Assembly: GCA_937974645.1 (NCBI GenBank)
Contig: CALJVH010000022.1
Coordinates: 1 to 42,133 of the forward strand
Direction of reading: 5' to 3'
DNA from: an uncultured archaeon
GTDB taxonomy: Archaea > Thermoproteota > Nitrososphaeria_A > Caldarchaeales > Wolframiiraptoraceae
DNA: 42,133 nucleotides
Shown here piece by piece: positions 26,599-41,997 of this stretch. Positions within the stretch are counted from its first letter, which is position 1; each line of letters starts with the position of its first letter. The translations under genes and the position numbers were made by a program. A model generated the notes under the pieces. That model was not told where the DNA came from. It searched no databases and saw only the letters and a list, made by a program, of their open reading frames with translations.

Positions 26599-28281
26599 TT
26601 GGCGTGGAGTGAAATGCCGGCTCTCACCATAAGGAAGCAGCGGTTCTTTGGCCTTATCGGAAGAGAGCTGAGCGACAAGGAGCTCTCAAACCTTCTCCAC
26701 GACCTCGGCCTCGACGTGGAGGAGATTGGTGAGGACTACTTCCGGGCTGAGTATAATCCGAATAGACCGGACTTATCGAGCCCCGTGGGAGTAGCGAGAG
26801 CAGCTAAAGGGCTCTTGGGAATATTGGTCGGCGCTCCGCGATATGAGCTTAGGCCCGCCAGAACGTATATCGAGGTTGATCCTAGGCTGAGAGACGTGAG
26901 GCCCTACGTGGCCGCAGCGATCGTCAGAGGCCTAAAACTCGGAGTCGAGGAGTTCGAGGAGCTAATAGCGATGCAGGAGGATCTCCACTGGATCCTCGGA
27001 AGGGATAGGACAAAGGTCGCGATAGGGCTCCATGACTACTCGGCCGTTAAGCCGCCATTCAGGTACATCGCCGCGAGAGGCGACGAGTACAAGTTCATAC
27101 CCTTGGGCGGTTACTCGCCGATGACGCTTGATGAGATACTTGAGAAGCATGAGAAGGGAGTACGGTACGCCCACATTCTGAGAGGGAAGCCGTTCTACCC
27201 CCTGATAGTGGACTCCCTTAACCGCGTCCTATCGTTTCCGCCGATAATAAACTCGAGGCTGACCGAGCTTAGCGGGAAGACCACGGGCGTCTTCATAGAT
27301 GTCACGGGAACAGATTTCAACGCCGTGATTCACGCGATAAACATCTTGACGACGGCGATGGCGGATATGGGCGGGGTCGTTGAGCGCGTCAAGGTCAAGT
27401 ATCAGGATCGGGTCATCTCAACGCCCATCTACAAGCAGAGAAAGTGGAGGATAAGGAGAAGCAGCGCGAGCGAGACCCTTGGCCTCGAGCTGAGAAGCAT
27501 TGATATCGTCAGGGCTTTGCGGAGGATGGGGCATGATGCTAGGGCTCGGGGGGAGGTGATAGAAGTAACCCCACCGCCATATAGGCCCGATATAATGCAT
27601 GAGGTCGACTTGATAGAGGATGTGGCAATGGGCATAGGGTATAGTAACCTCGAGCCAACCCAGCCGCAAGTATTAACCTATGGAAGCCTTCAACCGGACA
27701 CGATTTTAGAAGATCTCGTTAGGGAGATTATGGTCGGGCTGGGCTTCACGGAGGTCATGAACTTCACGTTGACCAATGTCGAGAACGAGTACGTAAAGAT
27801 GTGCATACATCCTCATCAGCATATCAAACTTAAGAACCCGGTCTCGCAGGAATACTCGATTCTCAGAACGTGGGTTCTTCCCAGCCTCATGAAGACTCTC
27901 GCGCTAAACGTCAAAACCCTATATCCGCAGAGGATCTTCGAGATAGGTGATGTCGTTTATCCGGATCCATCTAAGCCGGAGAAGGCGATTCGGAGGCTCA
28001 GGCTGGCCGCCGCCTCATCCCACTCCGAAGCATCCTACTCTGAGATGAAATCAATTATCGAGGAGGTCTTGAAGAACCTCGGTGTGGACGGATGTGATCT
28101 AACACCTCTGGACTCTATGCCGTTCATAGAAGGCAGGGCGGCCCAGCTAATGTGGGGTGGTAACGCGCTGGGGTTCTTTGGAGAGATTCACCCCGAGGTC
28201 TTGACGAACTGGAAGCTGAGCATGCCCACGGCGGCCATGGAGCTGGATCTAAGCCTGCTAGCCGAGATGACTCGCCGGTGA
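26599..28281 (+). CDS. pheT: Phenylalanyl-tRNA synthetase beta subunit (archaeal)
   Basis: YNPNRPDLSSPVGVARAAKGLLGI, PFYPLIVDSLNRVLSFPPIINSRLTELSGKTTGVFIDVTGTD, DLIEDVAMGIGYSNLEP. TTG start at 26599, or ATG at 26614. Confidence 0.95.
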   Translation: MAWSEMPALTIRKQRFFGLIGRELSDKELSNLLHDLGLDVEEIGEDYFRAEYNPNRPDLSSPVGVARAAKGLLGILVGAPRYELRPARTYIEVDPRLRDVRPYVAAAIVRGLKLGVEEFEELIAMQEDLHWILGRDRTKVAIGLHDYSAVKPPFRYIAARGDEYKFIPLGGYSPMTLDEILEKHEKGVRYAHILRGKPFYPLIVDSLNRVLSFPPIINSRLTELSGKTTGVFIDVTGTDFNAVIHAINILTTAMADMGGVVERVKVKYQDRVISTPIYKQRKWRIRRSSASETLGLELRSIDIVRALRRMGHDARARGEVIEVTPPPYRPDIMHEVDLIEDVAMGIGYSNLEPTQPQVLTYGSLQPDTILEDLVREIMVGLGFTEVMNFTLTNVENEYVKMCIHPHQHIKLKNPVSQEYSILRTWVLPSLMKTLALNVKTLYPQRIFEIGDVVYPDPSKPEKAIRRLRLAAASSHSEASYSEMKSIIEEVLKNLGVDGCDLTPLDSMPFIEGRAAQLMWGGNALGFFGEIHPEVLTNWKLSMPTAAMELDLSLLAEMTRR

Positions 28282-28287
28282 AAACAC

Positions 28288-29367
28288 ATGCATTACGTGA
28301 TCGTAGATGGAGGAATCCTCGCATTAGAGAAAGGATTAGACCATCTGAAAGAGATTGATGCGATAATCTTTGATTGTGATGGAACGCTTGTAGATGTTTC
28401 ATCTTCCTTCCCGCTTGTTGGAAAAATCATAACGGCAATCTATCTCGACAAGTTCTTCGGGATAGAGTGCAAGATCGGGAATGAGTACGATGAGGTCTTC
28501 CAGCTCCTGAAAATGCTTGGAGGATTTAACAACGTCAGAAGCATAGTCTTGCTAATACTTCAAGCGATATTCGTGGAGCTGGGTTGCCCTGATCCAAGAA
28601 GAAAAACTATTGAGCCAATACCAATAGACTTGGATTACTATGAGGGATTTATTTCGTGGGGTAAAAGTAGCCCGAAGCCCATTGAGAACGCTCTTAGATG
28701 GCTAACCTCCAGCGCGATTAGGCTACTTGGAAGATACGTGAAACCAAATTACCTCGAGGCATTGTTGAATAAGCGAGCCAATTCTCTGCAGGAGCTGAGG
28801 AGGTTTAGGGAATTAATCGGACCAATGTTCCCGTATGGCTCGGGGACCATGACCACGCTATTTAGCGAGTTATATGTCGGATCGGATGGGATAAGGAGGA
28901 AGTATGGAGTAAATCCAAGATTCTATGATGGTCCTGGGCTACTAGAGAATGAAAAGCTGATAGTCGAGCCTGAAGCGCTGGAAGAGCTCAGAAACCTTGC
29001 ACCGAAGGGCCTCGCGATATTATCAGGTAAGGGACGATGGGAAGCTGAAAAGATCTTGGGCCCGATTCTTCATTACTTCAATTTAGAGACGAGCCTCTTC
29101 ACGGGTGATACTGGAAGGGATATGGATAAGCCTAATCCCACAGGTCTATTAGAATGCTGCAGGAAGCTCAGAGCAGAGCACGTTCTTTATGTTGGTGATG
29201 GCGGGGAGGATTACTTCTTAGTCATGAAAGCGAGGGAGAGGGGGATTAAGGCATGCCTAGCAGCGGTACTGACAAACAAGTACTCATATACATTCTTCAC
29301 GAAATACTCAGCCAATGTAATCCTCGAGAACGTGAACTTTCTTCCCAAATTATTTAAGCGGCCCTGA
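28288..29367 (+). CDS. HAD-superfamily phosphatase
   Basis: AIIFDCDGTLVDVSSSFPL; LAILSGKGRWEAEKILG; DMDKPNPTGLLECC...VLYVGDGGEDYFLVMKARERG. Confidence 0.82.
   Translation: MHYVIVDGGILALEKGLDHLKEIDAIIFDCDGTLVDVSSSFPLVGKIITAIYLDKFFGIECKIGNEYDEVFQLLKMLGGFNNVRSIVLLILQAIFVELGCPDPRRKTIEPIPIDLDYYEGFISWGKSSPKPIENALRWLTSSAIRLLGRYVKPNYLEALLNKRANSLQELRRFRELIGPMFPYGSGTMTTLFSELYVGSDGIRRKYGVNPRFYDGPGLLENEKLIVEPEALEELRNLAPKGLAILSGKGRWEAEKILGPILHYFNLETSLFTGDTGRDMDKPNPTGLLECCRKLRAEHVLYVGDGGEDYFLVMKARERGIKACLAAVLTNKYSYTFFTKYSANVILENVNFLPKLFKRP
29350..29358 (+). promoter_or_regulatory. Candidate TATA box for the H/ACA-like RNA
   Basis: TTATTTAAG about 25-30 nt upstream of the predicted RNA 5' end (29381). It lies within the last codons of the upstream gene. 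Confidence 0.4.
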
Positions 29368-29380
29368 CCATCTTATAAGC

Positions 29381-29462
29381 GCCCCACCGCTGCGTTTGGC
29401 TCCTTGGAGAGGGGTGCCGAGCCCTAGCCATGATGAGGAGTTGTCGGCGGTGGGGCACAACC
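29381..29462 (+). ncRNA. Candidate archaeal H/ACA guide RNA
   Basis: GCCCCACCGCTG/CGGCGGTGGGGC basal stem, then ACA plus 3 nt. Internal pocket CGUUUGG / UUGU, upper stem CUCC/GGAG, K-turn-like UUG-GA ... AUGAUGA. Spacing from upper stem to ACA is 14-16 nt. Confidence 0.6.
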
Positions 29463-29464
29463 GC

Positions 29465-30283
29465 TTACCCCATGAGCAGGAGTATCGCCACGACGATGAG
29501 GGCTAAAGAGAATATTCTTCTCAAAGTAAGTGATTTGGCCCTACGAGCAGCGGATGCGCCGAGCTGCGTTCCAGCAATTATCCCGGGCGCGAGCGCAAGT
29601 AGCTCTAGTAGCTTAATGTGACCTAAAATCAGGTGGCCTATGGCTCCCGACAGGGCGGTGAGCGTGATCATAAGCATCGAAGTTGCGATGGCTACATGCA
29701 TGGGCACCCCGAGATGGTATAGCACCGGGATCTTCACCGTGCCACCGCCCACTCCGAAGAAGCCGGAAACAACTCCGGCCAGAAAGCTCGCGGGAAGAAG
29801 CTTCAGCAAGTCCACCGAATAAGTGAAAACTTCACCGCGCGAGTCTCTGAAAGACCTCTTCCAAGCAGTTATCCCATCACTTCTTTTGAAGACCTCTTCA
29901 CCGCCCGGCGAGCGTTTCATCAAAATGACCGAGAGCGCCAGAGCGACAAGGAAGATGGAGAATAAAGCCTTCAAAGGGCCGGGCGTGATGAAGCCCGTCA
30001 GAACTGCTCCAAGAAATGATCCCGGCATTGTTGCCATCTCAGCGACCAGCGCGAGCCCCCAGTCGAGCCTACCCTGCCGGTGGTAAGCAAATGCGGATGT
30101 CGCTCCCGTGAAAACTGTGGCGGCTATGCTCGTTCCAATAGCATTATGAGCATCAAATCTCGCCAAGAATATGAGGGCCGGAACCATGATAACACCTCCG
30201 CCAAGACCGAGCATAGCACCAAAAAACCCTGCAAATAACCCCGCGAGAATAATCGAGAGCAGGTAGATGAGAGCCTCAAACAA
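29465..30283 (-). CDS. TauE/SafE (sulfite exporter-like) membrane protein
   Basis: GLFAGFFGAMLGLGGGVIMVPALI ... FLAGVVSGFFGVGGGTVKIPVLYHLGVPMHVAIATS: duplicated GGG motif. Confidence 0.9.
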   Translation of the reverse strand: MFEALIYLLSIILAGLFAGFFGAMLGLGGGVIMVPALIFLARFDAHNAIGTSIAATVFTGATSAFAYHRQGRLDWGLALVAEMATMPGSFLGAVLTGFITPGPLKALFSIFLVALALSVILMKRSPGGEEVFKRSDGITAWKRSFRDSRGEVFTYSVDLLKLLPASFLAGVVSGFFGVGGGTVKIPVLYHLGVPMHVAIATSMLMITLTALSGAIGHLILGHIKLLELLALAPGIIAGTQLGASAARRAKSLTLRRIFSLALIVVAILLLMG

Positions 30284-30316: not shown

Positions 30317-31408
30317 TTATCGCGTAATCTCCTGAGACTTAACAAATTCATGCAGTCTCCTTGCATGGGGGTCCTTCTCGAAGTGCTCTCGAATCGGATT
30401 TAGGAGCTGGTTTAATGCCTCCGCGACTCCCTCCTTGAGGTCCGCGGGGTGAAGCTTGCCCTCGACGTAATCTCTCTCAAGCTCCTCGTAAGAGTAGTAT
30501 ATAATTGGGCCGCCGTACTTGCCGGGTCTATCTATGCGAAGCCTCTCGAACTTCCTGAAAATGATGTATTTAGCGTATTCTAGGATCGGGTTACTCTCGG
30601 CAGTTCTCGGCGGGCAATAGGCTCTCCTAATCTTGCTCCTTATGGCCTCTTCATCATCATGAGCAAATATGCTGGTCTCGGGCAGGCTCTTGCTCATCTT
30701 CGACGCTATTTGGAGATTCATCCGCGGATCATCCTCGAATCCCTTAAGCTCTGATGGGCCCTGGAGCCCCATAAGCATGTGGTGATGAATGGCGACGGGC
30801 TTCTTGAACCCTAGCTTTGGAGCAAGCTCCCTTGCGAGAATATTCGCCCTCCTCTGATCGAGGCCCAGCTGGCATATGTCGATGCCCATGTAGAATATAT
30901 CGGAGACCTGCATCGCCGGATAGATTATCTGAGCAGCTTCTTCAAGCTCTCCCGCAACCCTCCCCATTATCGGGAGGGCCCTCAGCATCCGCTTTATCGT
31001 GACGCTCTTAGCCACCTTTATCACGAGCTTCCAGTAGTCGGGATCCGCCGCCAAGTCGCTCGCCCAGACAACCTCGACCTTGCTCAAGTCGACTCCGGCA
31101 GCCTTCCAGACCTCGAGAAGATACTCTCCTACCCTCTTTATCTTCTCGAGATCGCCCCCCATTTTGTTGTTTATCATCGCGTGCCAGTCTGCTAGAAGAA
31201 GCTTGAACTTGCATCCAGCCTCAAGCAGATCTTGGAGTTTTATAGGCCTAAGCAGGGCAAGGGGGAGATGGGCTAAGCCGCTGGGCTCAAAGCCGTCATA
31301 CGCTACCGGGTGCTCGTTGGTCTCGAGTAGCTCCCTAAGCTCCTCCGGCGTGATGACTTCTTCGGTCGGCGGCCGCATTATAAGCTCCATCCTTGTCTCC
31401 AGATCCAT
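30317..31408 (-). CDS. tyrS: Tyrosyl-tRNA synthetase
   Basis: AYDGFEPSGLAHLPLALLRPIKLQDLLEAG, LLADWHAMINNKMGGDLEKI, QVSDIFYMGIDICQLGLDQRRANILARE, KMSKSLPETSIF. Confidence 0.95.
   Translation of the reverse strand: MDLETRMELIMRPPTEEVITPEELRELLETNEHPVAYDGFEPSGLAHLPLALLRPIKLQDLLEAGCKFKLLLADWHAMINNKMGGDLEKIKRVGEYLLEVWKAAGVDLSKVEVVWASDLAADPDYWKLVIKVAKSVTIKRMLRALPIMGRVAGELEEAAQIIYPAMQVSDIFYMGIDICQLGLDQRRANILARELAPKLGFKKPVAIHHHMLMGLQGPSELKGFEDDPRMNLQIASKMSKSLPETSIFAHDDEEAIRSKIRRAYCPPRTAESNPILEYAKYIIFRKFERLRIDRPGKYGGPIIYYSYEELERDYVEGKLHPADLKEGVAEALNQLLNPIREHFEKDPHARRLHEFVKSQEITR

Positions 31409-40329: not shown

Positions 40330-41997
<1,668 letters not shown>

Follow-up and report, generated by a model that had tools for sequence, protein, structure and literature searches.

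What does the 97-bp gap between two convergent genes of a Wolframiiraptoraceae contig encode? The window, i.e. the whole stretch of 42,133 nt that was analysed (contig CALJVH010000022.1), belongs to a Wolframiiraptor-like genome of the Caldarchaeales (former Aigarchaeota), whose nearest named relatives, judged by pheT, are W. allenii, W. gerlachensis and W. sinensis. The gap is bounded by the stop of a HAD-hydrolase gene at 29367 and by that of a TauE permease gene on the minus strand at 29465. A first-pass annotation had placed in it a candidate H/ACA guide RNA, a class for which no published representative from the Caldarchaeales was found in the literature.

Direct reading of the window sequence bore out the coordinates and base pairs that had been proposed. 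The candidate RNA (29381–29462, plus strand) fills the gap and is built on a 12-bp basal stem with one G-U pair, formed by GCCCCACCGCTG (29381–29392) and CGGCGGTGGGGC (29445–29456) and followed by the expected ACA box at 29457–29459. The predicted pocket, CGTTTGG (29393–29399) facing TTGT (29441–29444), can likewise be read in the sequence, as can the K-turn-like TTGGA opposite CATGATGA, the GA of which is conserved among relatives. The upper stem had been described as CTCC/GGAG; these pairs are present, but the length was underestimated, since the stem runs further. Its full extent comprises CUCCUUG/UGAGGAG, two tandem sheared G.A pairs and a closing G29399.U29441 pair, which together make a 'GA stem' of 10 bp, as counted by hand. 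From this closing pair to the ACA box there are 15 nt (16 nt if the pair is left out, and 14 nt in the Pelearchaeum member), in keeping with the spacing of 14–16 nt that had been claimed and with the rule for the distance between the upper-stem closing pair and ANA, which was taken from PMC4652768. Counted from the same pair, the 3′ guide of the window RNA is 6 nt long and the lower stem 9 bp. The hairpin has a minimum free energy of −47.3 kcal/mol as compared with a mean of −34.2 for shuffled sequences (z = −3.88), and one of 200 shuffles was as stable. The features of the locus are collected in Table 1.

Table 1. Features of the H/ACA sRNA locus and its neighbours, in window coordinates
Feature	Position	Strand	Evidence or remark
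pheT, ancestral upstream neighbour	26599..28281	+	Pfam tRNA_synthFbeta, B5; adjoins the RNA on its 5′ side in relatives
HAD-like hydrolase	28288..29367	+	inserted downstream of pheT and upstream of the RNA in some Wolframiiraptor
TATA box TTATTTAAG	29350..29358	+	−31 to −23 from the hairpin
H/ACA sRNA gene (very probable): single hairpin, ACA and 3 nt	29381..29462	+	fold, conservation, covariation, covariance-model matches
Lower stem, 5′ strand (partner 29445–29456)	29381..29392	+	99.3% of cells paired; both-side changes in 7/11 pairs
5′ guide arm CGUUUGG (possible upper-stem closing pair G29399.U29441)	29393..29399	+	CCUUAAG in most relatives
Upper stem, 5′ strand CUCCUUG	29400..29406	+	both-side changes in 6/7 pairs; 93.6% paired
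K-turn GA, 5′ strand	29407..29408	+	GA in 27/29 members
Apical (C-) stem and loop	29409..29428	+	varies among members; pairing weak in the model
K-turn, 3′ strand: 3-nt bulge CAU followed by GA (within AUGAUGA)	29429..29433	+	UGA in 25/29, UGG in 4/29
Upper stem, 3′ strand UGAGGAG	29434..29440	+	covariation
3′ guide arm UUGU(CGG); U29441 closes the upper stem	29441..29444	+	GUCGG can pair with 23S CUGAC (1916–1920)
Lower stem, 3′ strand	29445..29456	+	covariation
ACA box	29457..29459	+	ANA (ACA, AUA or AAA) in 28/29 members
TauE/SafE permease, convergent neighbour	29465..30283	-	profile match
Tyrosyl-tRNA synthetase (tyrS), ancestral downstream neighbour	30317..31408	-	

When 61 related genomes were searched at the DNA level, the element turned up in eight besides that of the window; four share its genus, and the remaining four represent a different genus within the family. 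Positions 29381–29459 are conserved across the genera, and in five of the eight genomes the match stops exactly at the ACA. A first covariance model (R1) found single copies in 34 of the 398 genomes of a phylum sample, and a second (R2) exactly one copy each in 31 of the order's 44 genomes, made up of 21 of 22 in the family of the window, seven of eight in family f4, both genomes of f3 and one of f2. The usual location is the pheT/tyrS junction: in the loci that were read, pheT is followed by the RNA on the same strand and then by tyrS; the RNA again lies between the two in a member of family f11 (locus L080), and in the f3 and f2 members it lies beside tyrS. Further covariance-model matches in families f6 and f25 (genomes G099, G250, G255, G334 and G350), located off this junction where checked, were not counted as proven orthologues and may be other H/ACA RNAs. 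Searches of Rfam, both at the gathering score and at E ≤ 10, returned no relevant family, the only hit being an irrelevant sub-threshold C/D match. As regards the immediate neighbours in the window, the genes for the HAD hydrolase and the TauE permease are present as insertions in some Wolframiiraptor genomes; in other members pheT, the RNA and tyrS follow one another directly.

The fold is maintained by compensatory change. In an alignment of 29 members (A5), both-side changes were found in 15 of the 21 modelled pairs, and the fraction of cells paired was 99.3% for the lower and 93.6% for the upper stem. The covariation score was 0.432; shuffles gave 0.179 and slid structures no more than 0.129. 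The first value leans towards the model because the alignment was fitted to it. The GA of the K-turn is present on the 5′ strand in 27 members, and on the 3′ strand 25 have UGA after the 3-nt bulge. ANA directly follows the lower stem in all members except that at L080 (1501–1579, minus strand), in which GCG takes its place and the 5′ arm reads GAGAGAG; this copy may have decayed or may end differently.

The TATA-like element that had been noted some 25–30 nt upstream is TTATTTAAG, at −31 to −23, and its AT-rich position is conserved across 24 genomes: when as many family members are aligned on the start of the hairpin, the A+T fraction reaches 0.92–1.00 at −29 to −26, which is where an archaeal TATA box would be expected. 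A gene for CBF5 scored above the cut-off in all eight genomes tested, including that of the window.

The class assignment, made in the first-pass annotation from the K-turn, the ACA box and a promoter of its own, thus came through nearly every sequence test available, and the element is almost certainly, on these comparative grounds, an archaeal box H/ACA guide RNA. Within this known class it represents a new family, unlisted in Rfam. A bidirectional terminator or repeat-like hairpin devoid of any RNA function, as might be supposed for a strong GC-rich hairpin between convergent genes, is extremely improbable. The element is single copy and not repeated; its conserved pocket, ANA and TATA are strand specific, matches of the covariance model to the minus strand scoring far lower; and it stays at the pheT/tyrS junction even where its flanks differ in gene content and orientation. 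The relatives, which were inspected for a bare terminator hairpin, the outcome named beforehand as fatal to the proposal, instead keep the ACA and the pocket. A C/D RNA was also dropped, for the C-like AUGAUGA is present but a terminal C/D pair is not.

The anatomy of the hairpin closely resembles that of the H/ACA sRNAs of Pyrococcus abyssi and P. furiosus, which have a 10-bp GA stem, a 9-bp lower stem, 14–15 nt to the ANA, a K-turn and an ANA at the 3′ end (PMC4652768). Productive Pyrococcus guides have '10/6/9' and '10/5/9' folds (Toffano-Nioche et al., PMC4652768); the window RNA is of the former type and the Pelearchaeum member of the latter. Unlike the 9-bp lower stem of these folds, that of the present family can reach 11–12 bp. 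The two sets also differ in taxa and genomic place, and share no sequence similarity, in so far as there was no Rfam match. Sso1, the guide for Ψ35 of Sulfolobus tRNA-Tyr (PMC4652768), is similarly a single '10/5/9' hairpin from a thermophilic archaeon; however, its target arms do not fit, and the identification as a tRNA-Tyr Ψ35 guide was abandoned.

Which nucleotide, then, might the family modify? Scans of 16S and 23S rRNA lineage by lineage with a strict 2-nt spacer revealed no shared site, and ranking rRNA windows on the 5′ arm by itself did not settle the matter. A site in helix 69 of 23S rRNA occurred, by contrast, in each of the 11 lineages under comparison and ranked second in 23S in the lineage scans. 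Here, the 3′ arms GUCGG, GUUAG, GUUGG and GUUCG fit CUGAC (E. coli 1916–1920), some with a mismatch or wobbles, and the 5′ arms CCUUAAG, CCUUGAG and CCUUAGG fit CUUAAGG (1924–1930), differing from one another only by exchanges of A-U for G.U. When spacers of 2–5 nt were admitted, helix 69 was the best site in 16S and 23S together, scoring 22.1 versus 18.4 for the next; three of 400 column shuffles reached this value and the reverse-complement 23S control scored 21.2. As the spacer-scan score was obtained with arms picked once the helix 69 match had been seen, it is by itself only suggestive. In most relatives both arms are kept, with four target nucleotides left unpaired instead of two.

The decisive support comes from the arms of relatives that were read after the match had been noticed. 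In G042, a member of f2, GAGUCAG and UACCUUAA pair without any wobble with CUGACUC and UUAAGGUA, giving 7+8 bp around U1923–C1924 and exactly two unpaired nucleotides. The Caldarchaeum-type members form 7+7 bp (G024 and G027) or, with a 6-bp second arm, 7+6 bp (G037) at the same site. In all four genomes, U1923 was the only canonical site with at least 3+3 bp in 16S and 23S, as scanned on reference rRNAs of other genomes; under the same procedure, the best site of the off-junction f6 match in G350 was U1921, with 5+6 bp. The sequence of helices 69–71 is identical in every 23S rRNA read, introns set aside. The family target is therefore probably U1923, the 3′ base of helix 69 in E. coli numbering, the predicted pairing being canonical only in some of the relatives. 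Among the tRNAs of G024 no good-scoring target site was found; the same scan overlooked the helix 69 site too, owing to a 23S intron that interrupts it in that genome and to the use of a wrong register.

Helix 69 is a recognised archaeal pseudouridine site (PMC7991803), and in haloarchaea its pseudouridines 1915 and 1917 are made with Cbf5 and an sRNA (PMC2584109). The Haloferax guide Hvo2, directed at 23S Ψ1956 and Ψ1958 (E. coli 1915 and 1917), resembles the present family in being an H/ACA guide for helix 69, and in one published model of it, too, an additional target nucleotide has to stay unpaired (PMC2584109, PMC4652768). Its targets are, however, the loop uridines 1915 and 1917 and not a stem base at 1921 or 1923. 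A closer counterpart may be found in the guides Pa40.3, Pf7.3 and Af4.3, whose targets are L2016 of P. abyssi 23S, L1970 of A. fulgidus and L2015 of M. jannaschii (PMC4652768). P. abyssi has Ψ at positions 2585, 2588 and 2603 (PMC6138745). These appear to fit E. coli 2493, 2496 and 2511, the two numberings differing by 92. Helix 69 and the peptidyl-transferase loop are 588–589 nt apart in the genomes examined and 588 nt apart in E. coli numbering. The offset and the matching distance place L2016 at E. coli 1923–1924, of which only 1923 is a U, and suggest that L2016 equals U1923, by an arithmetic equivalence of our own and not one drawn from a paper. Pa40.3, Pf7.3 and Af4.3 thus probably share the target nucleotide, a likeness by target position alone and via this numbering.

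The copy in the window itself raises a separate problem. The target form predicted for it in the first-pass annotation, 5′-ACAA-U-N-CCAAACG-3′ (ACAAUNCCAAACG), does not occur in 16S or 23S rRNA, and for the genus of the window, as for most relatives, the scans of 16S and 23S yielded no site that obeys the strict 2-nt spacer rule. Genome-wide, ACAAUNCCAAAYG gave one isolated match in one of six Wolframiiraptor genomes, and GACAUNCAAAYG, the register in which the closing G.U pair is formed, gave none; matches to the pattern AACUNUUAAGG lay outside predicted tRNA genes, in unrelated places, and were set aside. All Wolframiiraptor copies seen (seven genomes) have the 5′ arm CGUUUGG, which fits UUAAGG poorly, together with the 3′ arm GUCGG, which still fits CUGAC. 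That U1923 is the target of the window's own copy is accordingly possible but doubtful, and its guidance may be weakened, retargeted or lost. A change of CCUUAAG to CGUUUGG that turned the RNA of this genus away from U1923, towards another RNA or towards 23S 1933–1940 (GCCAAAUG), is a somewhat unlikely alternative. The fixation of CGUUUGG argues for constraint, and hence for retargeting or a modified interaction, and in the 23S of G001, G003 and G004 this arm is complementary to GCCAAAUG, a short distance 3′ of the old site. Against this, 16S and 23S offer no canonical two-arm site, and the two strict target forms have no genomic site common to several genomes.

A different alternative arises from the introns of the 23S gene. 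They are inserted exactly after C1924 in G024 and G031 (loci L113 and L114) and near 1927 in G003, G004, G014, G017, G029 and G099 (L029, L031, L033, L110, L112 and L107); G001, G008, G009 and G011 have no 23S intron at helix 69/71. As the introns interrupt the predicted target, modification in the genomes concerned would have to follow splicing. This placement is an observation and not evidence for a special role. It might nevertheless be imagined that the RNA has kept the H/ACA fold without guiding any longer, and, by pairing with helix 69/71, chaperones or times the splicing of the introns, given that introns fall exactly in the predicted target in several genomes and that many members have a 4-nt rather than a 2-nt target spacer. 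This is very unlikely: the introns vary between genomes and the RNA does not, while the members with canonical geometry and the retention of ANA would both have to be accidental. It is conceivable, if rather improbable, that the guide–target pair is in evolutionary transition, with canonical U1923 pairing in some lineages, a looped-out 4-nt spacer in most, retargeting or loss in Wolframiiraptor, and introns in the target that would permit modification only after splicing.

Taken as one statement, a conserved single-hairpin H/ACA sRNA with a TATA promoter of its own and U1923 as family target appears highly probable, even if L080 is a syntenic member without ANA and the 4-nt-spacer match to helix 69 exceeds its controls only modestly. 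Such an RNA would be transcribed from its own promoter and, as in other members of the class, L7Ae would bind the K-turn. The hairpin and ACA box would recruit Cbf5, Nop10 and Gar1, each strand of the pocket would base-pair on one side of the target uridine, and Cbf5 would isomerise this uridine to pseudouridine. Pseudouridines of helix 69 matter in all domains of life. The family adds a well-supported, unlisted H/ACA RNA to the Caldarchaeales, which is useful for annotation, and provides a specific, testable site in an inter-subunit bridge. The change of the guide arms against a constant rRNA target raises the question of how strict the spacer rule is, and the rRNA introns inside the target that of whether modification waits for splicing.

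Two further sets of observations concern helix 69 and the rRNA genes. G250 (L079) and G099 (L082) carry, off the pheT/tyrS junction, H/ACA-like hairpins of another family whose 5′ arm AGAGAG could pair with the 3′ strand of helix 69 in 23S rRNA; they are possibly a separate or relocated guide for this helix. The 16S and 23S genes lie on different contigs both in the genome of the window (C22 and C12 of G000) and in G001 and may be unlinked, the assembly being fragmented and the own-genome 23S match incomplete. In the window, the 16S gene (40330–41997, minus strand) spans 1668 nt as compared with a model of 1478 positions and probably holds an insertion or intron of about 190 nt; the 16S gene of G001 is 1976 nt long.
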